Source: a virus
Length of the DNA stretch: 27,475 nucleotides
IMG/VR virus record: IMGVR_UViG_3300048835_000190
Coordinates: 1-27,475 of that record
Reading direction: 5' to 3' (one strand)
Translations under genes and position numbers: made by a program
Shown here: piece by piece, positions 83 to 21,702 of the stretch
Layout of the letters: each line of letters starts with the position of its first letter
Numbering within the stretch: the stretch's first letter is position 1
Notes under the pieces: model-generated
Seen by the model: the letters and a program-made list of their open reading frames with translations, nothing else
What the model was told of the DNA's origin: nothing
Databases searched by the model: none

Positions 83-164
83 GGAGGGTATCCGAATGGT
101 GAGGAGACTGATTCGAAATCAGTTGCCCCGCAAGGGGTTGAGGGTTCGAGTCCCTTGCCCTCCG
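83..164 (+). tRNA. tRNA-Ser (anticodon CGA), integration target of element 1
   Basis: The acceptor stem GGAGGGT (83-89) pairs with GCCCTCC (157-163), with one G-T pair, followed by discriminator G164. The anticodon arm is ACTGA / TTCGAAA / TCAGT (107-123), giving anticodon CGA at 114-116, which reads UCG serine codons. The long variable arm with a CCCC/GGGG stem (about 126-137) is typical of tRNA-Ser, and the T arm is GAGGG-TTCGAGT-CCCTT. CCA is not encoded. Everything from base 110 onward is the copy supplied by the integrated element, which restores an intact gene; the displaced 3' part lies at 21645. Confidence 0.95.
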
Positions 165-167
165 CTT
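110..167 (+). repeat. attL core, left copy of a 58-bp direct repeat
   Basis: These 58 bases are identical to 21645-21702. The preceding base differs (T109 against G21644), as does the following one (T168 against C21703). The repeat covers the anticodon stem-loop through the 3' end of tRNA-Ser plus three bases, the usual core for a tyrosine integrase that crosses over in the anticodon region of a tRNA gene. Confidence 0.93.
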
Positions 168-241
168 TGTAAGTCTTGATAGCACGCCAAGTTAGAGAGA
201 AAACGCACTAGACACCTTTGATATCGCCAGTTGCCACTTGT

Positions 242-1378
242 TCAGGTAGTGCCAATAGAAGTGCCAATACCTTCGATTTCCCGTAATTCTCGGGCAATGT
301 CGTCGGAATCAATTCGGACGTAATACTTCATCGTCGTGGTGATCGACGCATGACGCATCAGCTTCTGTAACAGCGCTGGCTTCACCTTCATGGCCCAGCG
401 ACTACCGAACGAGCGCCGCATGTCGTGAGCGCTGGCGTACTTCTTTTTCTCTCCATCGTCACCGACGACGACATCGGCCTTCTTGCCAATGGCAGAGAAA
501 ATCTTGCTCACCCTGGATAGCGTAAACGGCTTGCCACCCTCAGCAGGGACAGGAAATACCAGCCCGTACCTATCTATTGGATCGGTGGCTAGCATCCACT
601 CGGCAAAGTCTGGCGTCAGTGGCAAGAACTCACTCTTCCGAGACTTTTGAGCGCTGGCCAGAATCCGCAGGCGGGGGAACTCGCCAGTCAGATCAACAGA
701 CATGGGTGCGGAACGATCCCACGAAAGGGACATCGCTTCGCCCAGCCTCAAACCGCTGTACCACAGTCCCCACAGCATCTTTGGCCAGCACGCCTCAGGA
801 CGAACCGATTCGCAGGCGTCAATCATGCGCTGAAACTCAGCCAGACTGATTGGCGAACCCTTTACCCCATCGTCATTGGAAATCTTGGGGAACGTGATAT
901 CAGGAACTTTGTTGAGCAACTTCTGTTTGACTGCCCAAGAGAGCGCCCAACGAATATGCCTCAAGTGGCAAGCGATGGACGTTTCCTTTAGCCCGTCCTT
1001 ACGCAACAAGTTCTGTAGCCTGGATAGCATCGGTGCGTCAATGCTGGCCAGCCTCAGGCGTCCCACGTCTTCACCTGGCGCAATCTTGGGTAAGTGCCCG
1101 AATGCCGACAGCAACGCCCCCTGCGTCTTCACAGCAAGCGTAGGAAACATCTCTTGTTCTACCCGAACCTGGAACGCTTCCCACGATAGCTTGCTCTTGG
1201 GTTGGTACAGCCCTTCGAGTAGCTCACGTTCCCAGTTACCTGCGAACCGCTCAGCATCGCGCATGCTCGTACATTTAGTTGAACGCTCGACGCGCTTACC
1301 CGATACCGGATCGTCGTAGTAGGCGAAAATGAACTTGCGTCCAGAACGTCTGGACACTTTCACGGAAATCTCACTCAT
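242..1378 (-). CDS. int: tyrosine integrase
   Basis: Site-specific recombinase of the phage integrase family, expected to integrate and excise the element through the 58-bp core. The N-terminal part (about 1-170) fits arm- and core-binding domains. The catalytic domain shows R211 (in SGLRLGEAM), K245 or K248 (SAQKSRK), H318-x-x-R321 (HDMRR), H343 (MRHASITTT) and nucleophile Y352 in MKYY. At 378 aa it has normal length. The ATG has a strong GGGAGG site upstream. It is the last gene of a leftward operon with the two small genes at 1444 and 1665. The Gly-Thr tail GIGTSIGTT is encoded by the paired GTGCCAAT repeats that may be arm-binding sites, so the 3' end of the gene and the att arm appear to overlap. 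Confidence 0.96.
   Translation of the reverse strand: MSEISVKVSRRSGRKFIFAYYDDPVSGKRVERSTKCTSMRDAERFAGNWERELLEGLYQPKSKLSWEAFQVRVEQEMFPTLAVKTQGALLSAFGHLPKIAPGEDVGRLRLASIDAPMLSRLQNLLRKDGLKETSIACHLRHIRWALSWAVKQKLLNKVPDITFPKISNDDGVKGSPISLAEFQRMIDACESVRPEACWPKMLWGLWYSGLRLGEAMSLSWDRSAPMSVDLTGEFPRLRILASAQKSRKSEFLPLTPDFAEWMLATDPIDRYGLVFPVPAEGGKPFTLSRVSKIFSAIGKKADVVVGDDGEKKKYASAHDMRRSFGSRWAMKVKPALLQKLMRHASITTTMKYYVRIDSDDIARELREIEGIGTSIGTT
249..268 (+). repeat. putative left arm-type integrase sites (paired GTGCCAAT)
   Basis: GTGCCAAT occurs at 249-256 and again at 261-268, a 12-bp period. A matching pair with the same period and orientation lies at the other element end (21522-21541), identical at 16 of 20 positions. 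Position near the cores and symmetry suggest integrase arm sites. Part of the signal is also coding for the integrase tail. Confidence 0.5.
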
Positions 1379-1443
1379 AGCAAACCTCCCTTGAAAAAGG
1401 AAACTAACGACTTGGCGGTTGACACCCCGCCTTATTGGCCCAT

Positions 1444-1650
1444 TCAGCCCACGTGGCTTTCCTCGTCAGAGACAGGACGTTCTTCGTCTTCACCGTCATC
1501 CGATTGCGACTCGCCACACTGGGGACAATCCCAATCGTGACGCGAAGGATCGAAGCCCAGTCCATCGAATTCCTGTTCTGAGTCATCATGTTCCCAGCCA
1601 AGTTCCGCAGAACGAAACTCAGCGCCACAACAGTTGCACACGTACATCAT
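1444..1650 (-). CDS. small acidic zinc-ribbon protein
   Basis: A 68-aa protein with two CxxC knuckles, CNCC at residues 5-8 and CPQC at about 42-45, separated by an acidic, Trp-containing stretch, then a very acidic tail rich in Asp and Glu. The spacing fits a single zinc ribbon. Such proteins often mediate DNA or protein contacts in phages, but no function can be assigned. There are two possible ATG starts (1650 and 1647), with GGAGA about 9 bases upstream. It lies 15 bases after the 1665-2045 gene and 65 bases before int in the same direction, so it is probably co-transcribed. An overlapping ORF in another frame (1404-1628) lacks the cysteines and is judged a shadow. Confidence 0.7.
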   Translation of the reverse strand: MMYVCNCCGAEFRSAELGWEHDDSEQEFDGLGFDPSRHDWDCPQCGESQSDDGEDEERPVSDEESHVG

Positions 1651-1664
1651 TCTTCTGTCTCCCG

Positions 1665-2045
1665 TTAACGTGAATACTCGGACACTTCTACAGCCAGCCG
1701 ATGCTTCTCACCGTTTACGAACGTCTCGTCATCGACTGTTACATCACAGATTTTCAACGCCCTCGCGAGTGCTTCAGCGCGGCGCTTGGATGCTGCGCCC
1801 GCAATCTGCACTACTACCACATATCCGCCTTTTAGTGTCGGTTCAGGGGCAGGTGTGGCGCGTTCCATCTTGGCCCGTTCATCCGAACCAGCCTTTTCGG
1901 CATCCTTGTTGAACCGCTGGACGAAATACTCGCCCATCCTCTGTCCTAAATCTTTGTCGAACACTCTGACGCGCTTGCGCCCCTTGTAAACGACGACATT
2001 CACCCGGGCCTCTGGCTTGAAGTAGCTAACAAGCTTCACGGACAT
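1665..2045 (-). CDS. hypothetical protein, first gene of the int operon
   Basis: A 126-aa basic protein of unknown function. The start MSVKLVSYF is chosen because AAGGAG lies 8 bases upstream of this ATG and a good promoter (2095-2123) sits immediately before it; the open frame extends further up but through non-coding DNA. The sequence alternates beta-like segments (VNVVVYKGRKRVRVF and GGYVVVVQIAG) with a helical Lys/Arg/Glu region, consistent with a small alpha/beta fold. Being promoter-proximal and ahead of int, it could be a regulator, but no helix-turn-helix is evident. Confidence 0.75.
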   Translation of the reverse strand: MSVKLVSYFKPEARVNVVVYKGRKRVRVFDKDLGQRMGEYFVQRFNKDAEKAGSDERAKMERATPAPEPTLKGGYVVVVQIAGAASKRRAEALARALKICDVTVDDETFVNGEKHRLAVEVSEYSR

Positions 2046-2094
2046 GACTGACTCCTTGTGGAAAACAGGCTGGGACATCCAGCCAACGTGCGAG

Positions 2095-2123
2095 AGTCTA
2101 GCGAGTGCCCTAAATCTTGTCAA
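2095..2123 (-). promoter_or_regulatory. sigma70-type promoter of the int operon
   Basis: Read leftward, a perfect -35 box TTGACA (2118-2123) is separated by 17 bases from TAGACT (2095-2100). It would give a leader of about 45 nt before the ATG at 2045. GTCAAT/ATTGAC half-sites overlap and flank the -35 box (2119-2124 and just upstream), so it may be repressor-controlled. Confidence 0.6.
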
Positions 2124-2190
2124 TATGTTTTTCTTAATTGACTTATAACTTCTGACAACTATTGACACCGACTGATATTCCACGAAAAAA

Positions 2191-2616: not shown

Positions 2617-2889
2617 ATGGAAAGTCAGATTGAGCAGGCGGAACGTCTCAAGACGCTGTTGCTGGAGATCGAAGCCATTGCCTTGAGGGCGAACGCGGAG
2701 ATCGAGAAGCTTCCAACAGCGGATGATCTAAGCGAACTGGAAGGATGCTTGAGAGGGATCGAACACAGCGCCAAGAACGCTGATACGGAGATCGAACGCC
2801 TTCCTTGTGCCGACGAACTGGACGAGTTGGCCGACAAGCTCGAAGAGATGGCAGGCAATGCCTACTCGGCCAAAGAAGCGATTAGCTAA
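2617..2889 (+). CDS. small coiled-coil repeat protein
   Basis: A 90-aa acidic, almost entirely helical protein. It contains two copies of a unit of about 30 residues: the first runs from IEAIALRAN to LEGCLRG and the second from IEHSAKNAD to LADKLEE, each carrying an EIE(K/R)LP element followed by an Asp/Glu/Leu helix. Heptad spacing of Leu and Ile suggests a coiled coil. The ATG is preceded only by a weak purine stretch. It is the first of three rightward genes that interrupt the leftward element. Function is not recognised. Confidence 0.65.
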   Translation: MESQIEQAERLKTLLLEIEAIALRANAEIEKLPTADDLSELEGCLRGIEHSAKNADTEIERLPCADELDELADKLEEMAGNAYSAKEAIS

Positions 2890-4662: not shown

Positions 4663-5361
4663 TTAACCCAACGAGCACCGACACCCGGCCCGCTCGGAAG
4701 CCGGTAGCGAAGGATCGCCTGGATACTTGGCGGGGTGTCCCCCAACATCGAACGTCCCGCCAACTGGAATGACCGAACCTGCTAGCGCTTGGTGGGAGGG
4801 GCGGACTCGATCATCTCCACGGGTCTGCCACGTTACCGATTCGCCGCGCTCTTCCGCACTGGCAAGCGCCCCGACATTCAGCGCCATGGTTGTTTCGGCT
4901 GTGGCAATCGTCTGTGCGCGTGTCTTGGTCGCTTTCAGTTTCTCTTTGATCGAGGCGACGATTTCTGCAACGGACTTGCCATCGGCTACCCCTTGGGTGA
5001 TTTCCTTTTGCGCCGCGTCTACTCCCTGCGCCGCAATGTCTGCCCAATACCCTAGCGCCTTAATCGTGTCCCAAACGGTTTTCAGTGTGGCTTTGAGCGC
5101 ACTGGACAGCGCGCCGAGAATGCGCTTGCCAACCTTGAATATCTTCTTGCTCGAAGCCTGATACGCGCCAGCGGCCATGATTCCCAGAATGGATTCTTCC
5201 ACTGCGTCAATCAGCAGTTTGGTTTCGGTCGCTATGTCTAGTTGCTCGCCAGACTGGTAAGCCTTGAGAATGCGTCTATTCTGTTTGCGCAAGTAGACTC
5301 TCAGCACCTTCGCCAATTCTCGCTCGGCGCGTGCGTGCAACTTTAGCCAGGCGTCAGCCAT
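4663..5361 (-). CDS. Mu gpF-like minor head / head morphogenesis protein
   Basis: A 232-aa protein ending in the typical Mu-F/SPP1 gp7 C-terminal signature: TRGDDRVRPSHQALAG, then YPGDPSLP and ERAGCRCSLG. The N-terminal two-thirds is helical, with an Ala-rich region. The family is a minor head component present in few copies near the portal, needed for head assembly. Its ATG overlaps the portal stop by 8 bases (ATGGCTGA), and head morphogenesis genes commonly follow portal genes. Length is at the short end for the family but the domain is complete. Confidence 0.9.
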   Translation of the reverse strand: MADAWLKLHARAERELAKVLRVYLRKQNRRILKAYQSGEQLDIATETKLLIDAVEESILGIMAAGAYQASSKKIFKVGKRILGALSSALKATLKTVWDTIKALGYWADIAAQGVDAAQKEITQGVADGKSVAEIVASIKEKLKATKTRAQTIATAETTMALNVGALASAEERGESVTWQTRGDDRVRPSHQALAGSVIPVGGTFDVGGHPAKYPGDPSLPASERAGCRCSLG

Positions 5362-6685
5362 TCTTTATCGCTCGACCTAACGACTTGAACCGCTTCTCAG
5401 TCGAGAACGTGTCACCACCCTTAACTGGTGGCAAGCCTAGAAATGCTCGGCGCTCGTTGCGTGTCGTGTCAGTCTTACAGAGCGCCCACTTCTTGAGCGT
5501 CATCTCTTCATCGTCTGGAATCGCTTCCTCAAAGTAGATGACGAGTTTTTCGCCATTCTTGGCAAACATCGGCCCAAGGAATGCCGTTAGCGCTTGGCTC
5601 ACCAATTCCAGAACTGGGTTAACCGTGTTGTCGTAGAAGATGCGGCGTGCTTCGTAACTCGATGCGCGGTTGGCGTCCTTCGCCCCCAGCAGGATTTCGC
5701 TTACCGAGTAAGCGTAAAGAATCTGCTCTTTCGTCAATGACTTGGATTCGAGAAATGCAAGTTCCTTCGGCGATAGCGAAAGTTGTTTAACGTCTTCGAT
5801 CATCCCGTCCAGCAGAAGCGGCGTGCCCATCTGGCTGACGCCGGTCCAATACCGCTGGATATCGTCCGTAAACTGCTTGCGCTGCTTCTTGGTGGCGATT
5901 GGTATCGTGCCCGGCCCACCGCTGGGGTCTGGGATTCTGCCGATCTTGAACGCGAGTCCTGGAAACTGGCCTTGCTTAAAGGTGCGCCAGTGCGCCTCCG
6001 AAATCGCTTGATCGGCTACAACCGCGTCTGCGATAGCGGAAACGGTAGACTTGAAGCCCCACGGGTCGGATGGATCGGGGAGGTAACTGTAGACAACCTC
6101 ATCGCCTGGAATATCGAACGTAGAAGCCTTGCCAGGAATGCGAATCGTCCAAGAGGCTCGGTCTCTGTCGGCGTCGTCGATCCAGTGTGACGGGATCGGG
6201 AATATCTGGAGTTTGTCCGACTTACCGTCTGTCGTGATCCACAACAAGGAACGCCCGGTGAGTTCAAGCGATGAGACAATAAAGTATTTGAGCGTAAAAG
6301 CTGTGCCCAGCGCCCAAGGGTCTTCGAGCAACTCCAAGATTGGGTGATTAGGCAGTGGCTCTAGGTTCTCACCAACACCCTTGAGGTGAGTTGGAACATA
6401 GGATTTCGTGCGAAACTTAGTTGGCTTGTCTTGAACGCGGGCCACTCGGAGCGGTTGACGGGCGCAGCGAGTGGCGATTCGATTGACTGCCGTATAGACG
6501 TAGCCACGAAATGCGGCCAACTGATCGCGAGCGCTGTCACAACTGGCACGTTTTCCCGTAATCGCTTCGGTTGCCGCATCAGTCAACGACGAGGGGAGCG
6601 CCGAAGGTTGAGACGCTTTAGTGCGCGCAACTTCCATCATCTTGCAGGTGTCTTCATGTTCCCTGCGTAATGCATCCCGCAACAT
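5354..6685 (-). CDS. HK97-family portal protein
   Basis: A 443-aa portal, forming the dodecameric ring at the capsid vertex for DNA entry. Family features visible are the N-terminal FRGYVYTAVNRIA helix, HPILELLEDP at about residue 120, the FTLKYFIVSSLELTGRSLLW region, QLSLSPKELAFLESKSL, and ILYAYSVSEILLGAKDANRAS near 330, followed by the clip and crown helices. Length is normal. The ATG begins 2 bases after the stop of the coiled-coil gene, and the end overlaps the Mu-F-like gene, so head genes are tightly coupled. Confidence 0.93.
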   Translation of the reverse strand: MLRDALRREHEDTCKMMEVARTKASQPSALPSSLTDAATEAITGKRASCDSARDQLAAFRGYVYTAVNRIATRCARQPLRVARVQDKPTKFRTKSYVPTHLKGVGENLEPLPNHPILELLEDPWALGTAFTLKYFIVSSLELTGRSLLWITTDGKSDKLQIFPIPSHWIDDADRDRASWTIRIPGKASTFDIPGDEVVYSYLPDPSDPWGFKSTVSAIADAVVADQAISEAHWRTFKQGQFPGLAFKIGRIPDPSGGPGTIPIATKKQRKQFTDDIQRYWTGVSQMGTPLLLDGMIEDVKQLSLSPKELAFLESKSLTKEQILYAYSVSEILLGAKDANRASSYEARRIFYDNTVNPVLELVSQALTAFLGPMFAKNGEKLVIYFEEAIPDDEEMTLKKWALCKTDTTRNERRAFLGLPPVKGGDTFSTEKRFKSLGRAIKNG

Positions 6686-6687
6686 GG

Positions 6688-6903
6688 TTAGCCTTTCGCA
6701 GTCTTGCGCACGGCAATCGCCTTTTCGGCCTGGACGCGCGCATAATCCCGCTCAATCACCGCAGTCAGGTTTCTCACCTGTAGTTCCATCGCTGCGATGG
6801 TATCGTCTCGAATGCGCAGTTCCTGCCTCAAGTCGAACAACAGCGATTCCAAACGTTTGTTCTCGCGCTGGGTGTCGTACTCAGCATATTTGGCAAGCCA
6901 CAT
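6688..6903 (-). CDS. small coiled-coil protein
   Basis: A 71-aa, highly charged, all-helical protein with heptad-like Leu, Ile and Met spacing (KRLESLLFDLRQELRIRDD). Its ATG overlaps the stop of the upstream gene by one base (TAATG), which suggests translational coupling. It sits between the 6903-7454 gene and the portal and may help head assembly, but the family is not recognised. Confidence 0.7.
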   Translation of the reverse strand: MWLAKYAEYDTQRENKRLESLLFDLRQELRIRDDTIAAMELQVRNLTAVIERDYARVQAEKAIAVRKTAKG

Positions 6904-7454
6904 TACTTGCCCTTCTCAACGAGTTTGGTCAGAAGTTCAAGCAGTTTTTCATTTACAGCGGTGCTACGCTCTAGCACTTCGGCCAGCGAAATACCTTTTT
7001 CAGGTTCCGGCAGGATGAAGTTCTTGCGCGGCTTGCCGTCATCGACCGGTTTAGGCTTCTCGCCTTCGAAGCTGGCTAGTGTTGGGAGTTCGCCCTTCAA
7101 GAGAACCGCATCCCCGTTGTCCACGGCGCGGCGCATCCAATAAAACCAAGTAGATTGAGTCTCGCCGTTGTAGACTTCCTTTTCCGGTGGAAGAGAATTG
7201 CTTTTCTCGATCTTGGCTCTGGTTTCACGGTGCTCGGGCTCGTGCAACGGTTCGCGGATATATCGCTCGCCAGTGGATAGGTTGACGCCAATGACCTTTC
7301 CGGGCACTGGCTTGGTCCACTTGTCGCCCTTCGCGCGAATCGCCTTGGAATCAATCTCGCGAAAGTTGATATGACCACGCAATGGTTTGCCAACTGGATG
7401 AAAAAACAGGCGCGAACCGCGCTTGCCGTGAACTTCGATTTCGACTACTGACAT
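6903..7454 (-). CDS. hypothetical protein of the head gene cluster
   Basis: A 183-aa protein directly downstream of the capsid gene. The N-terminal half looks beta-rich (VVEIEVHGKRGSRLFF, KVIGVNLSTGERYIREP), the middle contains STWFYWMRRAVDNGDAVLL, and the last 40 residues form an amphipathic helix (LAEVLERSTAVNEKLLELLTKLVEK). Position just after the capsid gene would suit a decoration, head-completion or tail-adaptor role, but no family is recognised. It does not carry the catalytic patterns of prohead proteases. ATG at 7454 with CAGGGA upstream. Confidence 0.75.
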   Translation of the reverse strand: MSVVEIEVHGKRGSRLFFHPVGKPLRGHINFREIDSKAIRAKGDKWTKPVPGKVIGVNLSTGERYIREPLHEPEHRETRAKIEKSNSLPPEKEVYNGETQSTWFYWMRRAVDNGDAVLLKGELPTLASFEGEKPKPVDDGKPRKNFILPEPEKGISLAEVLERSTAVNEKLLELLTKLVEKGK

Positions 7455-7526: not shown

Positions 7527-9122
7527 TTACGACTTGGCGTCAGGCATAATTGCCGCTGCGTTGGGGTCGATGAGTAGACCGCCATAGCGCCCAATCATCG
7601 CCATGCCCTTGGTGTTGTGCGTCAAGAAGTGCTTGCCTTGATCGCTGATGCGGAATTCGAATCCGGCGCGACGATACAGGCGATAGCGCTTCAGGCACAC
7701 AAAGCCTAAAGTGGAGTTGCCGAGATTCTGGTTGATCTTGTGCGGATAACCAGCGGTGCGGTACGACTGATAAGACTCGACGCCACCAAGTACGGGACGC
7801 TGATCGGTTGTCGATACCTGTGGGTCGATTCGGATCAAGCGGCTGCGCTGGTACGACGTGTCATTCGTGATGTATGTTGGGAACCAATTTTGCTCTCGGT
7901 ACTCTTTGGCAATTCCGAACTGCAAGGCAACCCAGTCTGCGAGCGTGTTTACTGCGCCGGTTCCACCAACGCTGTTGACGGTAACTGTGCCAGACGCGTT
8001 GAAAATGCCCTCTGGCTGGCTGGTGCCATCGCCTACGCACACAACCTTGTCTAGCGAGTGCAACAAGGATTGTCCGAACTCTTCAACCAGTTTTTGGCCA
8101 AGTTCCGAAACGGGGGTGTCCATTTCCAAGTTCTTGCCCCATTCGATGTAGGCGCGAACTTCGTGGATTGGGATTTCGAGTTCGCCAATCAGATCATCCG
8201 TGTCAAACTCGGCAATAGCCGTGCCCTCGTCGATGCCCCAGATAACGGACACTTGACCAAGGGTGGACGTCTTAACTTCACTGCTGCTCGCAGTCCGCAA
8301 GTCCACAAACGGGAGGATTTGCGAATGGAGGTACGGATAGGAGATAATGGCGCTATCGTACTGGAAAGGTACTAGACTCTGCCCTCCCGATGTTGCATCT
8401 TCCAGCAGCGTTTTGCGGTTGAGTTTGAGTTCGTCGATGGTTGCACGATCCACCCACGCGTTGTTCTTCATCGACCCACAAAAATACTCTTCTGCGTAGA
8501 GTTCTTCCACGAGTTGGCGCTCGTGCTCGTTGACGGAGGGAATCGAAAGTCCCATGTCTTTTAGCGCCGTCGAATTGCCTGGAGAATTCACGTAGTGCTT
8601 CATCCAAGCGCCGATCATGGCGAAATCCTTTTCGCTTGGAGTGCGAACCATTTCGCCGAAGGTACACAGGGGATCGCGAGTGCCCGGTTTCGTTACAACC
8701 CTAGATTCATTGTTGTAACGCTCGGACGCCTTCTTGACGCGAATCTGCGCCCCAGCGCCGCCGGTGTCTTTGCCCATTTCTTTGTTCAAGTCTGCAAGGG
8801 TAGCCATATCAAATTCCGTAATTTCTAAGAGTTGTTCTTTGGTAAGCTGCCCATGCGCAAAGGCCAAGGCAGTTTTTGAGAGGTAGTATTCGTCAGCCCC
8901 GTCAGCATCAGCCAACTGGTTTTCAACGAGATAGCGCTTGAGGCGCTCGATAGTCGGCTTGTCGGTAGACGCAACGATAGTTGCAACGGCCCGATCAAGC
9001 GTTTGGGTTGCGAATCCATTGGTGAGGACTTCGGCCACCGTATCAAGTGACGCGTTCGCAGGCATTCCGCACTTTATGTTGAGTAAGGCGCGAACTGCCG
9101 AGTTGATCTTATATGTGCCCAT
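7527..9122 (-). CDS. HK97-fold major capsid protein with long N-terminal region
   Basis: A 531-aa capsid protein. The ATG of MGTYKINSAVRALLN is preferred to an upstream TTG. The C-terminal 300 residues show the HK97 gp5 pattern: SGGQSLVPFQYDSAI entering the N-arm, E-loop-like QVSVIWGIDEGT, CVGDGTSQPEGIF, and LYRRAGFEFRISDQGKHF in the P-domain region near the end. About 220 residues precede the fold, probably an internal scaffold (delta domain) with helical segments such as TKEQLLEITEF and LADLNKEMG. That is longer than the roughly 100-residue delta domain of HK97. No separate scaffold or protease gene is visible. It lies between terminase and the portal block, an uncommon order. Confidence 0.93.
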   Translation of the reverse strand: MGTYKINSAVRALLNIKCGMPANASLDTVAEVLTNGFATQTLDRAVATIVASTDKPTIERLKRYLVENQLADADGADEYYLSKTALAFAHGQLTKEQLLEITEFDMATLADLNKEMGKDTGGAGAQIRVKKASERYNNESRVVTKPGTRDPLCTFGEMVRTPSEKDFAMIGAWMKHYVNSPGNSTALKDMGLSIPSVNEHERQLVEELYAEEYFCGSMKNNAWVDRATIDELKLNRKTLLEDATSGGQSLVPFQYDSAIISYPYLHSQILPFVDLRTASSSEVKTSTLGQVSVIWGIDEGTAIAEFDTDDLIGELEIPIHEVRAYIEWGKNLEMDTPVSELGQKLVEEFGQSLLHSLDKVVCVGDGTSQPEGIFNASGTVTVNSVGGTGAVNTLADWVALQFGIAKEYREQNWFPTYITNDTSYQRSRLIRIDPQVSTTDQRPVLGGVESYQSYRTAGYPHKINQNLGNSTLGFVCLKRYRLYRRAGFEFRISDQGKHFLTHNTKGMAMIGRYGGLLIDPNAAAIMPDAKS

Positions 9123-9179
9123 TTGGGATATTTTCTTATGCCCAGCCAACTCCGAAGAATTGGCCAGGCGCGGGAAGCG

Positions 9180-12224: not shown

Positions 12225-12559
12225 TTGCTCTCGGGGCAATGTTCGGTGCTCATCTTGGTTTTCTGGCGCAGGTGGCAACCGCACTTGGAACAACGGTTCT
12301 TGTCTGTGAGGTACTCGGGGCACTCTCGGCAGATTGCTAGAATCGCTACTTGTTCTTCTTTGCTTCTGATCGGACGCCCAGCGGCAACCCAGCGGATTGT
12401 TGATAGGGTGGCGCTTTTCGCCTGCTTGGCCAGGGATGGGAGTTCGCTATCACATTGGCGCACTAAAGTAGGCGTGGTGGTTACTCGGACTGCCTTACAG
12501 CGCTTGCAGGTGTGCTGATACTTCCCGGCGGTTTCCACGGTTTCGAAGTCGCAAGTCAT
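12218..12559 (-). CDS. zinc-ribbon protein of the structural operon
   Basis: A 113-aa protein with two cysteine clusters: CKRC at about residues 18-21, and near the C-terminus CRECPEYL followed by CSKCGCHL, resembling a small rubredoxin-like or zinc-ribbon finger. The ATG lies in an ATGA overlap with the end of the serine-rich gene and the gene ends in an overlap with the next one, a clear operon signature. Many phages carry such a protein among tail or head genes, but no function is assigned. Confidence 0.72.
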   Translation of the reverse strand: MTCDFETVETAGKYQHTCKRCKAVRVTTTPTLVRQCDSELPSLAKQAKSATLSTIRWVAAGRPIRSKEEQVAILAICRECPEYLTDKNRCSKCGCHLRQKTKMSTEHCPESKW

Positions 12560-14154: not shown

Positions 14155-14165
14155 CAGGCGTCCTT

Positions 14166-14573
14166 TCAACTTAACTCGGAGTCATGTTGGAGACGTGATA
14201 GGACGACAGGTTTCAGTCGATACCACGCTGATGTAATTCCGTGAATGAACGCACGAGCGAACACAGGCGTAAACTCTTTGGGAACGCCAAAGCGGGCCAT
14301 GTGCTCGTGCATTTCCACGGGATTCAACTCATTGAGGATCAACTCACCGCTGGCAGATGAGATGTGCTCAAGTTGCTCAGCCGTGGCGCAGGCAAGCGCC
14401 CACTCTCGACCGGCTTGGTTGCCGAACTTCTCAGATAGCGTGATAGCTTCGTCGTAGTAGGCGATAGCTTCTCGCTTTTCAGGCGTAAGAAAGGACTTGT
14501 GGCCACTGTCGTCGTACACAACGGGATTCGCGGCCAACAGTCGCTCGATAGCGTACTCTTGCAGGTCTTCCAT
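14166..14573 (-). CDS. hypothetical protein upstream of the serine-rich gene
   Basis: A 135-aa protein starting at MEDLQEYAIERLLA, with GAAAGGA upstream; the longer frame runs through the palindrome region and the recombinase end. It is mostly helical (EKREAIAYYDEAITLSEKFG, REWALACATAEQLEHISS) with no membrane segment. It lies between the serine recombinase and the serine-rich protein, and palindromes of the same family stand just before its start and over its stop codon. No family is recognised. Confidence 0.7.
   Translation of the reverse strand: MEDLQEYAIERLLAANPVVYDDSGHKSFLTPEKREAIAYYDEAITLSEKFGNQAGREWALACATAEQLEHISSASGELILNELNPVEMHEHMARFGVPKEFTPVFARAFIHGITSAWYRLKPVVLSRLQHDSELS
14167..14189. 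promoter_or_regulatory. operator-like palindrome, copy 2
   Basis: Half-sites CAACTTAACT and AGTCATGTTG flank a central CGG, 8 of 10 positions symmetric. The site lies 12 bases upstream of the start of the serine-rich gene and overlaps the end of the previous gene. Confidence 0.4.
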
Positions 14574-14599
14574 GACTTTCCTTTCGGCGCTTCCTGCGC

Positions 14600-14622
14600 C
14601 AACATGACTCGGAGTTATGTTG
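14600..14622. promoter_or_regulatory. operator-like palindrome, copy 1
   Basis: Half-sites CAACATGACT and AGTTATGTTG flank a central CGG, 9 of 10 positions symmetric. The site stands 26 bases upstream of the ATG at 14573, between it and the recombinase stop. Confidence 0.5.
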
Positions 14623-15351
14623 TTAGCGGGACAGAACTCGTTGGACTTGAACGTGATTCCACTGCTTGCCACGACGGGTGGTGTGGCCCTCGTCATTCAA
14701 GCGCTGTGCGATGCTGGCCAGCGGTAAGCCCTCATTTCGCCACTCTTCGATCATGGGCCGGATATCTTCATAGGCTTGGTCAGCGCGCTGACGGATAACC
14801 TCTGCCGAACGCTTTGCCCCACGCTTACGACCGGCAACAGTGAGATTGCGACACTCGGGACGGGATGCACCCAACTTTGTGCCTCTGGCTTTGGCGGCTT
14901 GGAGCGCGGCCTTGGTACGCTCGGAGATTGCTTTAGCTTCGGCTTCGGCGACAGCGGCAAGGATATGGACAGTTAGTCTGTTGGCGTGGGGATTGTCGCA
15001 CGCAATGAACTCAGCGCCTGATTCCATGATCGTCGTGAGAAAGTGCAGGTTACGCGCCAGCCGATCCAGCTTGGCAACCAGCAGCACTGCCTTGCTCCGC
15101 CTAGCATGGCTTAGCGCCTTCGCCAGTTCGGGACGATCCGACAGTTTGCCCGATTCGACTTCTCGGTATGTGGCCAGCAGCTTAGCGCCGGTTTGCGCCA
15201 GATAGGCCCTTATCGCTTCTTGCTGTCCTTCGAGCCCCAGGCCAGACTTGCCTTGTTTCTGGGTGCTGACGCGAATGTAGGCGATGACACGTTGCGGGAC
15301 GTTGGCAACCACTTTGCGTCTCCTTTTGCTTGGTGCTTTCTTGTTCGGCAT
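14623..15351 (-). CDS. serine recombinase (resolvase/invertase family)
   Basis: A 242-aa site-specific recombinase. The catalytic domain has YIRVSTQKQ with nucleophile S29 and the arginine motif KLDRLAR, followed by the long helix ESGAEFIACDNPHANRLT...AEAEAKAISERTKAAL. The C-terminal domain (about 190-242) is a helix-turn-helix: LPLASIAQRLNDEGHTTRRGKQW. Length fits small resolvase-type enzymes, not large serine integrases. It sits inside the leftward structural block with a 36-bp dyad (15368-15403) in front. Possible jobs are multimer resolution of the replicated element or inversion of a nearby segment; the tyrosine integrase already accounts for integration. Confidence 0.93.
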   Translation of the reverse strand: MPNKKAPSKRRRKVVANVPQRVIAYIRVSTQKQGKSGLGLEGQQEAIRAYLAQTGAKLLATYREVESGKLSDRPELAKALSHARRSKAVLLVAKLDRLARNLHFLTTIMESGAEFIACDNPHANRLTVHILAAVAEAEAKAISERTKAALQAAKARGTKLGASRPECRNLTVAGRKRGAKRSAEVIRQRADQAYEDIRPMIEEWRNEGLPLASIAQRLNDEGHTTRRGKQWNHVQVQRVLSR

Positions 15352-15367: not shown

Positions 15368-15403
15368 GTACAAATACTTGAACGTCCAATCAAGCATTTG
15401 TAC
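15368..15403. promoter_or_regulatory. 36-bp dyad upstream of the serine recombinase
   Basis: GTACAAATACTTGA (15368-15381) is the inverted complement of TCAAGCATTTGTAC (15390-15403) with one mismatch, around an 8-base centre ACGTCCAA. No T-run follows, so it is not a standard terminator. Its place 17 bases upstream of the recombinase start suggests a recombinase crossover site or an autoregulatory operator. Confidence 0.5.
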
Positions 15404-15834
15404 TATTGAGACTCGTGGATTTCGTCAAGAAAATCTGATGGTTCGGCGCTCAAGTCGAGCGCCTTTATCGCTTTATCTCTAGCATCGCAAGCTTTCGCAA
15501 CCCACGCGCTGTGTTCGACCCGCTCGGACGGCTTGAATGTGTCATAGGACTCTTCCAGCCAGTAGGCGCAACGCATACCGTGGCGAGCCCACTCAACCGC
15601 TGTATTGACGAGAGCAGCGTCCAGCACCCCAATTTGGCCCTTGGTGTTCAACACTTCGTCTTCGAGTGCGCGACGAAAAAGATTGAGTTGCTTGGATATG
15701 TACCCTTGGCCGGGAAGGTTGTTGCCGGGCAGGAACAATCCGTGGCGAAACCGCTCGCGTCTCTCTTTGTTGGTGGGAGAGTCTGCGGTGTCGGCGGCGT
15801 CAATCGGGAATTCGTCGTCTAGTGGTTCGTCCAT
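15403..15834 (-). CDS. possible terminase small subunit
   Basis: A 143-aa helical protein that opens the leftward packaging block. An acidic N-terminus is followed by FRHGLFLPGNNLPGQGYISKQLNLFRRALEDEVL, a phrase that resembles DNA-binding N-termini of phage small terminases, then several amphipathic helices. Position first in the operon, before the other packaging genes, supports the assignment, though it is separated from the large subunit by about 4.7 kb. A TATAAT box lies 67 bases upstream. Alternatively it is an unrelated early structural protein. Confidence 0.5.
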   Translation of the reverse strand: MDEPLDDEFPIDAADTADSPTNKERRERFRHGLFLPGNNLPGQGYISKQLNLFRRALEDEVLNTKGQIGVLDAALVNTAVEWARHGMRCAYWLEESYDTFKPSERVEHSAWVAKACDARDKAIKALDLSAEPSDFLDEIHESQ

Positions 15835-15944: not shown

Positions 15945-15973
15945 TTGATTGAGCACTAATCGGTGTGTAGCAT
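15945..15973 (+). promoter_or_regulatory. promoter of the SHD1-domain gene
   Basis: TTGATT (15945-15950) and TAGCAT (15968-15973) are spaced by exactly 17 bases and lie about 30 bases upstream of the ATG at 16003. The promoter is divergent from the leftward structural promoter in the same 168-base gap. Confidence 0.5.
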
Positions 15974-16002
15974 GGGACAACCCCACCCTTTGGAGAGTCG
16001 TT

Positions 16003-16815
16003 ATGTTCAGCCTGCTCATTGCTCTGTCACTTGTCGGTCAAATATCTGGCCTTGGGCGTTCGATTCAAAGCGGCATCAACAATGCTGACTATTCGCCCGA
16101 AAAGCGCCTTCCGTGTGACATTCCGATTCCTGCAATTGACGTGTCTAAGCTAGAGGGAACCAAGGAAACCGAGCCCTATTTGGCGGCATGTGCCAAGGAA
16201 CGTGAACTGCAAATCCAGACGGAGCAGAACAACCTTACAAGGATGCTAAACAACAGAAGAAGTGATCGCGGAAGTATTCAAAGGCTAAGAGAGAGGCTGC
16301 TGCAACTGGAAAGCTCGCCCCCTTTAGCGTTTGTTCCTAAACTACGAGCGCCGTTAGAGGTCGGAAAAGTGGGTGCGCCGATGCGAATAGATGTAGCTCA
16401 AGTCATCGACGACAAGAATATGCATGCAGAGTTGCTCTTGGACACAGGTGCTGCGCCCATCACGGTGCGCGTGAACTTAGAGGCAAACGGCGCGATCGAC
16501 GGGGAAAGAGTTCGCCCGTTCCCAATGGAGATTACCGGCACCAAGAAATACATCACGACAAATGGTGCGGTGGCCACGATCTATACCGCCAAGCCCGTCA
16601 ATTTAGCGCCGATCAAAGAGTTGACAGACAAGGCGATTGTGGCCGCAAGAACTCGGGAATGGAAATCTGGCAAGTACAGCGTTGTTGCGGAGTTTGTGAA
16701 GCTGGAAAAGTTCACTGTCACCCTGAAAAAGGAAGATGGGAGCGAGATTGATGTGCCCCTGAACAAGCTCTCAAGGGAGTGCCAATCAGCCGCGAGAGAA
16801 TTTGCGGGGAAGTGA
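16003..16815 (+). CDS. exported SHD1-domain protein
   Basis: A 270-aa protein starting at MFSLLIALSLVGQ, with TGGAGAG upstream; the longer frame is not supported. Residues 1-16 are a short signal peptide or signal anchor. A helical region with QTEQNNLTRMLNNRR and RLRERLLQLES follows, then a beta-rich middle region. The C-terminal 50 residues (REWKSGKYSVVAEFVKLE, then VTLKKEDGSEIDVPLNKLS) form an SHD1 (SLA1 homology) domain, a fold frequent in planctomycete secreted proteins and thought to bind peptides. It is the only rightward gene in its neighbourhood, with its own promoter, and looks like a lysogeny-expressed cargo gene. It ends 6 bases before the convergent topoisomerase stop. Confidence 0.85.
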   Translation: MFSLLIALSLVGQISGLGRSIQSGINNADYSPEKRLPCDIPIPAIDVSKLEGTKETEPYLAACAKERELQIQTEQNNLTRMLNNRRSDRGSIQRLRERLLQLESSPPLAFVPKLRAPLEVGKVGAPMRIDVAQVIDDKNMHAELLLDTGAAPITVRVNLEANGAIDGERVRPFPMEITGTKKYITTNGAVATIYTAKPVNLAPIKELTDKAIVAARTREWKSGKYSVVAEFVKLEKFTVTLKKEDGSEIDVPLNKLSRECQSAAREFAGK

Positions 16816-16821: not shown

Positions 16822-19314
16822 TTACCTCCCAATCGCCTTTCTGACTTGCTCAATTATTTCATGGTGGTGATCGTCGATAGCACCTCTCGTTGTCCGGTCG
16901 ATGTAGTGCGTCCAGTGTTCTGGAGGCGTGTTCTTGGCCCATTGTTTCAGGTCTAAGTTTGGGGCTTCGATCTTCAAGGACTCAGCCGCCTTCAGCGTCA
17001 GACCGTCTAGGTCTAACTCCTGCTCGATCTGCTCTCGGATGGTGGCGTAAAGTTCGGTCTCAAGCGTGTCCTCGGCTCGCTCTTGGATTGTCTCGGCTGG
17101 CGGGATCAGTTTCTTGGCCACGCCAAAGTGGTTCAGTTTGTCCTCAATCCACTGTAGGAATGCCATCGGGTCGGCTGAGAGGGCGTTGAGTTCGATCCGC
17201 TGACATTTGGTGTAGATCGTTTTGTACTTGCCGTTTTTGGTTACGACTTGCTGCTTCTCGCCTGTCCAGTATTTGCGCTCTACTTCGCCCATTGGGACAT
17301 GGATTCTCTTTTTCCGAGGGAAGTATTCCGTCTCTAGCCCCATATCCAAAGCCTCTTGGACGGACATTCCGGCGTCGATGATCTCGATGTTAAAGTGGTG
17401 CGCTCCGGTGTTTTTGCTGAGTGTGCGGGCTATGCTGTAGCCGTCAGGGTCGGCGTCGTGGAAACAGAGGACTTTCATTTTGTGGCCTTCTTGTGCGGCG
17501 TCGATCAGTGCTTTGGCGGCGCGGACTGCGTACCCTTCGCTTGCCATGATGGCGCAGTCATATCTTTCGGCGATGCGACCCAACTCAAACTTTGTCAGCA
17601 GTCCCTTCTTTTCCACGTACAGGATTGTCTCATAGAGGTGTAGCGGGATTCGGTATTCCGATACGGCCTTGGTTCCGAGTTCGATCTTCTTGCCGGTGTG
17701 CGGCTCCAATAGGTAGCCACGAGCGTCTAGCAGTCGGCCCTCAATGATTCCGTACTCTTCCTCCCACTTATCCACGATCTTGTCGAAATAGCCCTGTTTC
17801 AATTCGGCGCTCGTGTACGCCTGGACCAATTCACGTGCAGCATAGTACAGGTCTCGGTTGGAGAATTCGCATCGGCCACCACCAGACGCCTTCTGGATCG
17901 CATCTAACATGACGGCGTAAACAGCCAGATTGAGTGGTGTTTTCGCAAGTCGTTCCTCTTTTTTTAGCTGTTGGTATTGCTTGTACCCTTCTGAAATCTC
18001 GCGCTCGGCTCGGCGCTGACGCGCGGCGTATTCGTCCGTCACCGACTTGACGCATTTATCTATGGCCACGCGGAGTTCGGCGCTGGGCTCGACCACTGTT
18101 TTTCCGTGATCGGTGTAGGTTGGGTTAACCGTCGAAAAGTGCAGCAGAAAGCTAACAGCGCTGTCTTCTAGGCATATCCGCTGCTCCGGCAACAGCCAGT
18201 CCAGGCTTCGCACAATCGTGCCGTGGATCGCAGGCGAGAAGTTGCACCCGGTCAGTCGCGGCCCATCGTCCTCTGAGAATGCGGCCTCGACCACGAACGG
18301 CAATCCGCGATCATCGACGCCGGAGATACGCTTGTATTTTGTATCCTCGCCAAATACGCGGGTAATGTGCTCGCGTCCGATCATCCCCAGTTGCTCGGGC
18401 TTTGGCTGCTTGCCGTGCTTTCGCATCGACGCCAACAGACACTTGGTTTTTTCCCGGTCGAACTTATCGTGGCAGGCCAGTGATGAGAGGCAGGCCCGCT
18501 TGAGTCCGGTTTCGTCGGCGACGGACTTGAGCGCGCTGGATCGGGTCAGACCGGCGAACTCCTTCACGAACTCTCGCAAAGGACGATCTTCGCCGCTCTC
18601 ACGATCTTTGCTGATGCACCTTCCGGCCAGTCGCTCGAATGATTCGATATCGTGCCACGCCGGGGGATCGGGATTGGCTGCTGACCATTTGGGACATTCG
18701 TTGGCGGTGCGTTCCCAAGTCTGGCCGTCGAGTGATATCGTCAAGTGTGGATTCAGGGCGGCGTAGCAGTTGCAAATAGTACAAAACGATTCCCTAACTC
18801 TGCTTCCTAACTCGCCGGTCACGATCTCGACCGAAGTGCCGATTTGTACTTTTTCGTTTGTCGCCTCATATTCGATTCGCTCCTTTTGCGCGAGTGAGTC
18901 CATTCCAACGGCCACCTCGTGCCGGACACCCTGCGCGGTAATGATCGCCTTACCGTTGCTTCCGGCCAGAACGTAGGGAACCGCAATCAAACACTTGCCG
19001 GCGTTCCCTTGAGCGCCACGAGTGGGACAGCGGTAGGCTTCGCGGCTGCTGGTCCGTGTCCCGAAATCCAGCATGGCCTTGACGACTTCTGGCGGGATTC
19101 CGTCGCCGTTGTCGCGCACGATCAATCCGGTATCGGTGATTTCGACGACGATCTCCGGCAGTCGTCCGATCTCCTCGCAGTGGTCGAGCGCATTGTCGAT
19201 CAACTCTTTCAGTACGGCGGCGTGAAAGTAATTCCGCGAATAGCCGATCTTCTTGGCCAACTCGTTTTCGCTAAGGAATTCGAGCGCTCTACTGGTGGTG
19301 AATGTCTCTCTCAT
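16822..19314 (-). CDS. single-chain topoisomerase VI-like protein (B and A parts fused)
   Basis: An 830-aa type IIB topoisomerase-like protein. The N-terminal half is TopoVI-B-like: GHKL N-box with E37 and N41 (KELIDNALDH), DNGDG (68-72), and GAQGNAGK (100-107). An H2TH-like helical region follows (about 255-325, ending PEQLGMIGREHI), then a transducer-like segment with PFVVEAAFS. The C-terminal half is TopoVI-A/Spo11-like: CAP motif NRDLYY, with Y491 the expected DNA-cleaving tyrosine, and a Toprim domain with E568 (LYVEKKGL) and the D620/D622/D624 cluster (HDADPDG). All key residues are present, so it should bind ATP and cleave DNA. Fusion in B-A order recalls topoisomerase VIII of plasmids. 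AAAAGGA precedes the ATG. It is next to the Prim-Pol gene, suggesting a role in element replication. Confidence 0.88.
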   Translation of the reverse strand: MRETFTTSRALEFLSENELAKKIGYSRNYFHAAVLKELIDNALDHCEEIGRLPEIVVEITDTGLIVRDNGDGIPPEVVKAMLDFGTRTSSREAYRCPTRGAQGNAGKCLIAVPYVLAGSNGKAIITAQGVRHEVAVGMDSLAQKERIEYEATNEKVQIGTSVEIVTGELGSRVRESFCTICNCYAALNPHLTISLDGQTWERTANECPKWSAANPDPPAWHDIESFERLAGRCISKDRESGEDRPLREFVKEFAGLTRSSALKSVADETGLKRACLSSLACHDKFDREKTKCLLASMRKHGKQPKPEQLGMIGREHITRVFGEDTKYKRISGVDDRGLPFVVEAAFSEDDGPRLTGCNFSPAIHGTIVRSLDWLLPEQRICLEDSAVSFLLHFSTVNPTYTDHGKTVVEPSAELRVAIDKCVKSVTDEYAARQRRAEREISEGYKQYQQLKKEERLAKTPLNLAVYAVMLDAIQKASGGGRCEFSNRDLYYAARELVQAYTSAELKQGYFDKIVDKWEEEYGIIEGRLLDARGYLLEPHTGKKIELGTKAVSEYRIPLHLYETILYVEKKGLLTKFELGRIAERYDCAIMASEGYAVRAAKALIDAAQEGHKMKVLCFHDADPDGYSIARTLSKNTGAHHFNIEIIDAGMSVQEALDMGLETEYFPRKKRIHVPMGEVERKYWTGEKQQVVTKNGKYKTIYTKCQRIELNALSADPMAFLQWIEDKLNHFGVAKKLIPPAETIQERAEDTLETELYATIREQIEQELDLDGLTLKAAESLKIEAPNLDLKQWAKNTPPEHWTHYIDRTTRGAIDDHHHEIIEQVRKAIGR

Positions 19315-19335: not shown

Positions 19336-19358
19336 TGACTAAACTCGGAGTTATGTTG
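19336..19358. promoter_or_regulatory. operator-like palindrome, copy 3 (one good half)
   Basis: CGG followed by AGTTATGTTG matches copy 1 exactly over 13 bases plus the preceding AACT; the left half-site is only 6 of 10 symmetric. It lies 21 bases upstream of the topoisomerase ATG and overlaps the stop of the Prim-Pol gene. Confidence 0.35.
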
Positions 19359-20640
19359 CAGGTTCCCAGGCATCGCCCAATTCGGGGAAATCCCCCAGAT
19401 ATCGCCACTCGGATGCCTCATGCTTTCCAAAGTCGTGTTCCTTTGCCAATCTGATGATGCCCATTTCCTTCAGCGCCTTCAGGACGAAGTTCGCTTGGCT
19501 ATGGGAGACACCCAGCAGCCTGCCAGCGGTGCGGTTACACAAGTAGAAATTGCCCTTACCAGCGCGGCGCTGTAGTTCGGCACAGAGTTTTACTAGCCAG
19601 CGGGCTTGGGCGCTTCGGCAGCGGGACGCACACTCGGGATCGTCGCCTTCCATTGCAGCGCGCCAGGCGTCTTGGATCGGCTCGCAATCCTTGGGAAACT
19701 TCACCTTTTCAAGCGCGTCAGAGAATCGGCCATACGCTTCCTCGTAAGGCATCGGTTTGGCAACGGCAGACATCACAGGTAAGGCCCTTTCGTAGAACAA
19801 GTCGAAGATCGGGGACAACTCAGATGCGCTCATTGTAGCTAGCGGCGGAAAACTCTTGAGTTCTCTCGCCAGATCGAAGATTTGCCTGTGACGATGCCCA
19901 ACCCCACTCGGCAAACAACGATCAACAGCGCAATGTAACCGCCCCACATCCACACAAGTCTTACGCAGCAACAGCAGCAAAGAATCTTCGCAGAACCAAT
20001 TACCTCCTGAGAACCCTGTGGCTCTTGTGGCGTCTGCGTGTCTGTGTAAAGTTGCAGAACTATTTTGCGGATACAGTCCAGCCGCAACAGGATCAATCTC
20101 GGGCAAATCCTTGATATCACTGGGCAATGGCCGTAGCCACTGATAGTTGCCCTCTGGGTGCGGACTTGGGGCCACTAAGCAAAAGCAGCCCACGTCTACC
20201 CGCAGTTCGCCAAGATGGTGTCCCTCGAAATCGACAGGCAGCGCCCCGTTACCAAACCTACGATTCTTGGCCCGCAACTCAGTGACGTAACCCGGTGCGG
20301 TTCGGAACCAGACTTGGCCACCACGCCTAGACTTCGATACAGGTAGTTCATTGGCCAGTGGACTGGCTTTAAGCCACTCGTCAAAAGCGCTCTTATCGTC
20401 GAAATCTCGGCACCCGAGATTGCCGGACACTTCGCCCATCAACAACCCGACTCGATAGTCTCGTTTGAACCAGTTGCGAATACTCGATTCGCTGGGGCGT
20501 TTGGATTGATATCGCTGCCATTTGACAGCAGGCGTCTTTTCGGTTGGATGGCCAGGGATTACGCACAAACCTTTGTCGTGATAATCCATTGCCGCCGAAA
20601 GAATCTTTTCACAAGCATCCTTGCTTTGCCTATAATACAA
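19351..20640 (-). CDS. bifunctional primase-polymerase (Prim-Pol) with winged-helix C-terminus
   Basis: A 429-aa replication initiation protein of the archaeo-eukaryotic primase superfamily. The N-terminal domain (1-180) has GLLMGEVSGNLGCRDFDD with D79 and D81 as metal ligands, then SRRGGQVWF, and LRVDVGCFCLVAPSPHPEGNYQW. The usual His of the GGxH motif is Gln109 here. A helical middle region contains CLPSGVGHRHRQIFDLARELKSFP, typical of planctomycete Prim-Pols, and the C-terminus (about 360-415) resembles a winged helix (GRLLGVSHSQANFVLKALKEMGIIRLA). No helicase domain is attached. The start is TTG at 20640 with AAAGGAA 9 bases upstream; ATG at 20589 is the alternative. It probably primes or initiates element replication together with the topoisomerase. 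Confidence 0.88.
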   Translation of the reverse strand: MYYRQSKDACEKILSAAMDYHDKGLCVIPGHPTEKTPAVKWQRYQSKRPSESSIRNWFKRDYRVGLLMGEVSGNLGCRDFDDKSAFDEWLKASPLANELPVSKSRRGGQVWFRTAPGYVTELRAKNRRFGNGALPVDFEGHHLGELRVDVGCFCLVAPSPHPEGNYQWLRPLPSDIKDLPEIDPVAAGLYPQNSSATLHRHADATRATGFSGGNWFCEDSLLLLLRKTCVDVGRLHCAVDRCLPSGVGHRHRQIFDLARELKSFPPLATMSASELSPIFDLFYERALPVMSAVAKPMPYEEAYGRFSDALEKVKFPKDCEPIQDAWRAAMEGDDPECASRCRSAQARWLVKLCAELQRRAGKGNFYLCNRTAGRLLGVSHSQANFVLKALKEMGIIRLAKEHDFGKHEASEWRYLGDFPELGDAWEPAT

Positions 20641-21050: not shown

Positions 21051-21085
21051 TTCCACTTCCTTTTGCTGGGGGGATTAAGACAGTG

Positions 21086-21316
21086 CTAATTCTTCAACGA
21101 ATCGAGAAAGGCCAACCAATCCGCGCCTTTGACGAATCGCTTCCGGCCTATTTCGATAACTTGGATATGCTCACGGACGTTGCGCCAGGCATGCTGGCCT
21201 AGCCCACAGCGTTTGCGGAACTCTTGAAGCGAATAAGCCTCGTGAGCATTGATGACAGAGGCTGGTTTGGCTGGCCCCTTCACGGCTGGTTTCTTTGGCT
21301 GGTTAACAGCTTCCAT
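21086..21316 (-). CDS. excisionase / AlpA-like DNA-binding protein
   Basis: A 76-aa basic protein, start at MEAVNQPKKP (GGAG 6 bases upstream). After a Lys/Pro/Ala-rich N-terminus, residues about 25-76 form a winged-helix-like reader: AYSLQEFRKRCGLGQHAW, then VIEIGRKRFVKGADWLAFLDSL, the pattern of small MerR/Xis-type proteins common in planctomycete mobile elements. Its place at the right end, opposite int, fits an excision factor or an AlpA-type activator. It is the first gene of the leftward early block. Confidence 0.75.
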   Translation of the reverse strand: MEAVNQPKKPAVKGPAKPASVINAHEAYSLQEFRKRCGLGQHAWRNVREHIQVIEIGRKRFVKGADWLAFLDSLKN

Positions 21317-21422
21317 TTCAGGCTCCGATAACAAAAAAGCTAAGTGGACTCCCCACACACTTAATAGTATGCAATTCGCACCATCTTGTGGTGAGTGCCT
21401 ACACAAGTCTTGTATTGTTCGT

Positions 21423-21428
21423 TGTCAA
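21423..21428 (-). promoter_or_regulatory. -35-like TTGACA upstream of the excisionase gene
   Basis: Read leftward, TATTGACAA matches the -35 region of the int-operon promoter. The hexamer 17 bases on (TGTGTA) is a poor -10 box, so activity may need an activator, or the motif may be an operator. Confidence 0.3.
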
Positions 21429-21483
21429 TAGCTAAGCTACCGCACCCCCCAATGGTGAGATTAATTCAAGTTATGTTGAAACG

Positions 21484-21516
21484 AAAAAGGACTGGCCAGC
21501 CGAAGCCAACCAGTCC
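21484..21516 (-). terminator. intrinsic terminator near attR pointing into the element
   Basis: Read leftward, GGACTGG (21516-21510) pairs with CCAGTCC (21495-21489). Three G-T pairs and two more G-C pairs extend the stem to a TTCG tetraloop closed by C-G, and TTTTTC follows. It would stop transcription entering from the flanking DNA before the excisionase gene. Confidence 0.75.
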
Positions 21517-21521
21517 CACAA

Positions 21522-21541
21522 GTGCCAATGAAAACGCCAAT
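21522..21541 (+). repeat. putative right arm-type integrase sites
   Basis: GTGCCAAT (21522-21529) and ACGCCAAT (21534-21541) have the same 12-bp period and orientation as the pair at 249-268 and lie about 100 bases inside attR. Confidence 0.5.
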
Positions 21542-21644
21542 GGAATGGCGCGCTTCTAGGATTTTACTTGAGAAACATGCGGTGTTTTTCCAGGGAATAA
21601 TGCATATCCGCAACCTAACGCAAATCTAACAGCAGTCTTAAAAG

Positions 21645-21702
21645 GATTCGAAATCAGTTGCCCCGCAAGGGGTTGAGGGTTCGAGTCCCTTGCCCTCCGC
21701 TT
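21645..21702 (+). repeat. attR core, displaced 3' part of tRNA-Ser
   Basis: Exact copy of 110-167. It lacks the tRNA 5' half and the upstream sequence is unrelated, so it is not a functional tRNA gene. Confidence 0.93.

Follow-up and report, generated by a model that had tools for sequence, protein, structure and literature searches.

A capsid-forming, probably tail-dependent satellite-type element and its lineage of tail-less relatives

Introduction

Satellites that form their own capsids and take tails from other phages are known mainly from Proteobacteria and Firmicutes, with one actinobacterial case. The capsid-forming phage-inducible chromosomal islands (cf-PICIs), as the work of Alqurainy et al. 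2023 is summarized in PMC10690885, carry genes for capsid, protease, portal, connectors, both terminase subunits and an HNH endonuclease, and they lack tails. According to PMC10803314, cf-PICIs average ∼14 kb and occur mainly in Enterobacteriaceae and Firmicutes groups; their capsids form three clades (PMC11389934). The Streptomyces satellites MulchRoom and MiniFlayer likewise encode terminase, portal, capsid and head-tail adapter. MulchRoom was seen with tails of helper length, and no tail genes were found in it; MiniFlayer is a podovirus-like satellite with short fibres (PMC10690885). Here we describe an integrated element in IMG/VR record IMGVR_UViG_3300048835_000190, a 27,475-base sequence referred to below as the window, which encodes heads and packaging enzymes and in which no tail gene was found.

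We consider this element to be probably an intact capsid-forming and tail-dependent satellite-type element that belongs to an old lineage. A preliminary description of the window had proposed a planctomycete counterpart of the capsid-forming PICIs. The layout and the phylogenetic position support a tail-less capsid-forming satellite, the missing protease and HNH genes speak against membership in the PICI families, and the planctomycete host is likely only.

Organization of the element and comparison with known satellites

The element is bounded by an exact 58-nt direct repeat, attL at 110–167 and attR at 21645–21702, with ∼21.5 kb between the intact sites, as had been described. attL is the 3′ part of the integration target, a tRNA-Ser(CGA) gene (83–165, plus strand) located by ARAGORN. 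Almost all genes of the element lie on the minus strand (the strand of every gene below unless noted), are tightly packed and frequently overlap by a few bases.

The head and packaging cassette begins with the large terminase subunit TerL (9180–10724; PF03354, 2.8e-6; phrog_9, 3e-28). It is followed by an HK97-type major capsid protein (MCP; 7527–9149; PF05065, 1e-19), the proteins w6903 (6903–7454) and w6688 (6688–6903), a portal (5354–6685; PF04860, 2e-37) and a Mu-F-like head morphogenesis protein (MuF; 4663–5361; PF04233, 1e-15). Two neck genes precede TerL: an HK97 gp10-like neck/tail-completion protein (gp10/Neck1; 11465–11857; phrog_5, 6.5e-13) and a head-tail adaptor (10740–11468; phrog_442, 1e-8) homologous to the adaptors of tailed relatives. 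The terminase, portal, capsid, Mu-F-like, connector and gp10-like genes named in the preliminary description thus each have a family match. Among the 12 elements of the lineage defined below, the adaptor and gp10 pair is found in the window only.

Two cassette proteins have no family of their own. About 65 homologues of w6903 adjoin MCP in tailed and tail-less relatives alike, and we regard it as a conserved head-module protein; its AlphaFold model (predicted local distance difference test score, pLDDT, 91) matches no known fold in PDB or BFVD. The 71-residue, coiled-coil-like w6688 is characteristic of the lineage, being present in 11 of its 12 members, with a single weak profile match (L054, E 0.0024) and a single-sequence match (L131, E 5e-4) beyond it. 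The candidate small terminase subunit (TerS), w15403 (15403–15834), is proposed from its position and from homologues upstream of TerL in the related elements L050 (4e-7) and L132 (1.6e-12). Its model is helical (pLDDT 73) and gave no significant fold match in PDB.

Like a cf-PICI, the window element is integrated, carries an integrase and a primase next to TerL, a candidate TerS, capsid, portal and head-tail connector genes, and has no tail; the sizes in its lineage (12.7–21.5 kb) are similar to the ∼14 kb of cf-PICIs. Unlike them, the lineage encodes no head-maturation protease (the protease profile matches 82 other records and none of the 12 lineage elements), and no HNH endonuclease family was found among the window open reading frames (ORFs) scanned. 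The lineage differs further in the gene order TerL-MCP-w6903-w6688-portal-MuF, in its lineage-specific proteins and, for the window, in the combination of topoisomerase VIII (Topo VIII) and Prim-Pol. Because protease and HNH are missing, we call the lineage a new variant of capsid-forming satellites rather than a cf-PICI, a separation made on gene content from published descriptions. MulchRoom and MiniFlayer have terminal repeats, scaffolding and HNH genes and no obvious replicase (PMC10690885), whereas the window element is flanked by att sites and encodes replication proteins itself.

Absence of tail and lysis genes

From the tailed relatives described below, we built profiles of tail-tube, tape-measure, tail-completion, distal-tail and fibre proteins. 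None of them matched any window frame of at least 30 residues, while the same procedure recovers the window's gp10, adaptor, w6903, w6688, MuF, portal, MCP and TerL. The preliminary description had reported no recognizable tape measure, tail tube or baseplate and had suggested that tail proteins might be hidden among the unassigned genes; the tube, tape-measure and distal-tail profiles found none there either. No holin or endolysin had been recognized, and general family searches turned up no lysis family among the window ORFs scanned.

A monophyletic tail-less lineage

Scans of viral contigs with portal and capsid sequences returned many relatives. Eleven of these records share the window's core, MCP-w6903-w6688-portal(-MuF), with a tape-measure gene in the place of w6688 in L125, and TerL lies upstream of MCP in all 8 members that reach that far, the window included. 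The members are ∼37% identical to the window. When MCP and portal sequences were concatenated for a tree, the 12 tail-less records separated from 29 tailed-type records with branch support of 100/100; another tree of these two proteins set 7 records against 33, and a tree built from MCP only left the position of the window undecided. Judged from gene content and phylogeny, the window and its 11 relatives are a previously unrecognized lineage of at least 12 elements without a tail module. The gene set TerL-MCP-w6903-w6688-portal-MuF defines the lineage and can be used to find more members. Single-protein scans of viral sequences with MCP, TerL and the topoisomerase returned same-sample copies only, and TerL had no match among phage records.

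Two relatives are both complete and small. In L132, the genes from integrase to MuF lie between 38-nt repeats (35–72 and 12735–12772) that are 12.7 kb apart; the repeats correspond to the first half of a tRNA-Arg(CCT) gene, which was recognized by eye, ARAGORN having called none. L136, the full record behind L127, has identical 127-nt ends and is hence a complete circle of 13,377 bp. The missing tail is therefore not an artefact of contig ends, and these two elements rule out that explanation for the family. A search for related tRNA-Ser elements with the same layout had been suggested in the preliminary description; of the 11 found, the att-bounded one uses tRNA-Arg. The 12.0-kb L050 shows the compact order integrase, HTH_17 regulator, D5-type primase/helicase, TerS candidate, ParB-like protein, TerL, MCP, w6903, w6688, portal and MuF.

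Several observations weigh against an intact tail-dependent satellite. Most lineage members are contig fragments, five window proteins (starting at 1665, 3882, 11877, 12556 and 14166) have no assignment, and the element is known from its genes alone. L125 encodes a 637-residue tape-measure protein (TMP_3, 4e-25), and L136 encodes a distal-tail-family protein, whose counterparts in tailed relatives come after the tape measure (profile 2e-72, BLASTP 2e-32). Neither encodes a tail tube, and the statement that there is no tail gene holds for the window, not for every member. The L136 portal gene also contains an in-frame TAA, so some copies may be decaying.

These single tail genes admit another, rather doubtful interpretation, in which an independent satellite lineage has outsourced both its tail and its head-maturation protease. 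The L125 tape measure, the L136 distal-tail protein and the window's neck pair would then not be remnants and could modify the length, tip or joint, respectively, of a borrowed tail. Whether a single tape-measure gene can reset the length of a borrowed tail is a question that the lineage raises, as is the maturation of an HK97 head without an encoded protease.

In L136, the N-terminal part of the capsid protein is encoded in a separate overlapping ORF.

Comparison with tailed relatives

The tailed relatives share homologous MCP, w6903, portal, MuF, adaptor and gp10 with the window (G007, G010, L060, L081 and others). G007 (92,947 bases, with a 127-nt end repeat indicating a circle) encodes adaptor, gp10, tail tube and a 733-residue tape measure (phrog, 1e-94), and G010 (86,345 bases) an 806-residue tape measure (6e-26). 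Their usual order is portal-MuF-protease-MCP-w6903-(adaptor)-gp10-tube-tape measure. They differ from the window in carrying a protease and usually, where the contig is long enough, tube and tape measure (of 30 loci that continue for 8 kb or more downstream of MCP, 23 have a tube or tape measure), as well as in TerL, gene order and clade.

These relatives bear directly on the possibility that the element is a defective remnant, a tailed prophage whose tail module was deleted. The homology of its head, neck, MuF and w6903 proteins to theirs would fit such an origin, as would the presence in tailed phages of homologues of the window's Zn-ribbon protein w12218 that follow the tape measure, the stop codon in the L136 portal and an apparently truncated MuF region at the end of L011, beside host-like genes. 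The gene order speaks against it: gp10 and adaptor precede TerL in the window, whereas gp10 follows MCP in the tailed relatives, an arrangement that does not result from one deletion in a tailed phage. A simple deletion of the tail module is therefore rejected. The TerL of the lineage is akin to TerLs of other phages (L029, L126) and differs in family from the TerL of the tailed relatives with a related capsid protein. In addition, the same tail-less layout recurs in 12 monophyletic lineages at only ∼37% identity to the window, and the window's genes are open and tightly overlapping. A defective remnant is consequently unlikely. The separate clade with 100/100 support, the other order and the other TerL speak against a recent deletion in a prophage and favour an old lineage of capsid-forming, tail-dependent satellites. 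The preliminary description had held that longer relatives with tails would make the element a deleted prophage; such relatives do exist (G007, 93 kb; G010, 86 kb), but they form a separate clade with a different order and TerL, and the nearest kin of the window are tail-less.

Two features of the tailed-type relatives were seen by eye. The fused portal-MuF gene of L012 (9833–12985) contains an apparent intein at the C-x-C motif of MuF, which is absent in its close relative L013, and the protease appears to be fused to an AAA+ ATPase domain in L006 (4978–7515), L012 (14526–17450) and L013 (5138–8293).

Unassigned proteins and the question of an unusual tail

Upstream of the neck genes lies a group of proteins that could in principle build a short tail or one of an unrecognized type. 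The gene at 11877–12323 has neither a family nor a relative that we could find, and w14166 (14166–14696) has no family match. In L114 and G007, homologues of the Zn-ribbon protein w12218 (12218–12646; phrog_13558) are encoded after the tape measure. The serine-rich protein w12556 (12556–14169) is a candidate virion appendage by position and composition. It had been singled out as the largest unknown protein, at 532 residues; it is indeed serine-rich, but measures 537 residues from an upstream TTG. A 22-residue N-terminal match to the post-tail protein of tailed phages, the L114 neighbour, was obtained in a single comparison (E 0.001), and w12556 otherwise resembles that neighbour in composition and position only, so a fibre role is a guess. 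Homology between the two was considered and not adopted, as the hhalign and BLASTP results are too weak to claim it. PDB sequence searches with w12556 and gp10 gave nothing useful. Long serine-rich stretches are very common in the proteins of these phages, including virion-type ones (e.g. L081 12915–13631, L110 2796–4982).

An autonomous virus could use w12556, w12218, w11877 and w14166 in the window, and w6903 in all members, for such a tail. The placement of w12556 and w12218, which recalls the module after the tape measure in L114, is compatible with this, and short fibres are known from podovirus-like satellites (MiniFlayer, PMC10690885). We nevertheless regard it as quite improbable. Neither L132, which is bounded by att repeats, nor the circular L136 encodes w12556, w12218 or w11877, and a tail module would not fit into either of them. 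Phages with a full tail have w6903 just as well, and the tail profiles match nothing in the window.

Replication module and cargo

Both the Prim-Pol and the topoisomerase of the preliminary description were recovered by family searches, and its statement that the replication module differs from that of capsid-forming PICIs agrees with their pairing here. Prim-Pol (19351–20640) matches PF09250 (6e-16). The topoisomerase (16822–19314) matches TopoVIA Toprim (2e-10) and GHKL ATPase (8e-7) families and is a single 830-residue polypeptide with fused B and A parts. Its GHKL motifs are found at residues 37 (ELIDNALDH), 68 (DNGDGI) and 100, the catalytic-tyrosine motif SNRDLYY at 485 and the Toprim motif HDADPDG at 619. 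With a fused VIB-VIA arrangement and intact catalytic motifs, this type IIB enzyme is Topo VIII-like, and its activity is predicted. Its best tblastn matches, over 95–97% of its length, are to plasmid-encoded proteins from Paenibacillus polymyxa M1 and Halalkalicoccus jeotgali, which we take to be Topo VIII examples; a search of 50,697 phage records (E 1e-3) gave no match. Described Topo VIII enzymes also combine GHKL ATPase and Toprim/TopoVIA in one polypeptide and occur on plasmids and integrated elements, where their role is unknown (PMC8185306, PMC8084294). The window copy differs in sitting on a capsid-encoding element and, if our reading is correct, would put this enzyme on a packageable element.

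Replication modules vary among members (Prim-Pol with Topo VIII, D5-type helicase, a 532-residue putative initiator or, by eye, a RecA-like ATPase), while the packaging-head cassette remains constant. The window and L005 are nearly identical contigs from one sample, 9 substitutions and one 27-bp in-frame indel apart; the indel falls in the topoisomerase gene (17749–17775) and is a deletion in L005.

Proposed life cycle

On the strength of its gene content, the element residing in tRNA-Ser would be excised by its own integrase and replicated by its own Prim-Pol, perhaps also with Topo VIII. The head and packaging gene set suggests that HK97 heads would be built from the element's own proteins and filled with its DNA by its own TerL and probable TerS, via the portal that it encodes. 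Tails from a co-infecting siphovirus of the related tailed clade may then dock onto a surface formed by the adaptor and gp10-like neck proteins. Such a helper would provide tail, host recognition and lysis, and may supply the head protease as well, because none is encoded. Reliance on a helper phage for tails is most likely. As a circumstantial point, three sample codes with lineage members (3300035698, 3300017987, 3300031227) also contain tailed relatives.

The cassette could alternatively be a capsid island put to a use unlike that of a phage, either as tail-less particles released by lysis or as a domesticated transfer agent. Although no tail or lysis genes were found in the window, and its replication genes, Topo VIII and Prim-Pol, resemble those of plasmids, this is highly improbable: the intact att sites, the integrase and the element's own packaging enzymes suggest self-packaging and mobility, and an element with no tail to attach would have no use for neck proteins.

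Host

The host is likely a planctomycete. The window carries an SHD1-domain gene, a probable cargo (15949–16815, plus strand; PF03983, 1e-8), a similar gene lies near the MuF end of L132, and J-domain genes adjoin L011; SHD1-domain and J-domain genes are both families that we take to be planctomycete-style. A profile search of genome contigs with portal alignments yielded no relatives, and no relevant publication on planctomycete satellites was found in the open-access literature. If this separate clade does belong to Planctomycetes, as it appears to, the tail-stealing way of life would have evolved once more on the basis of a different head module, and would extend to a phylum about whose phages very little is known.

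Recombination genes and flanking region

The tyrosine integrase (242–1378; PF00589, 3.6e-13), already reported in the preliminary description, is akin to that of L125 (2.5e-8). The excisionase-like protein also reported there is not backed by a family match, either for 1404–1628 or for 21086–21406 (none in Pfam or NCBIfam for the latter). The second of these, a small protein near attR, is a possible helix-turn-helix (HTH) regulator or excisionase by eye. An HTH_17/AlpA-type regulator was not found in the window and is present in L050 (PF12728, 3e-11).

An invertase/resolvase-type serine recombinase (14623–15351; PF00239, 1.6e-30) also lies inside the element, with the TerS candidate on one side and the serine-rich module on the other, and L129 has a 584-residue serine recombinase downstream of MuF. 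A small coiled-coil ORF (2617–2889, plus strand), opposite to most genes, has a DUF2730 match above the cut-off.

To the right of attR, 22712–23599 encodes an MTES_1575/DUF559 nuclease-type protein and 24918–27170 a Toprim/PriCT-1 primase-type protein with a homologue downstream of MuF in L007. The presence of this additional replication-type gene beyond attR suggests that the flank on that side could be another mobile element.

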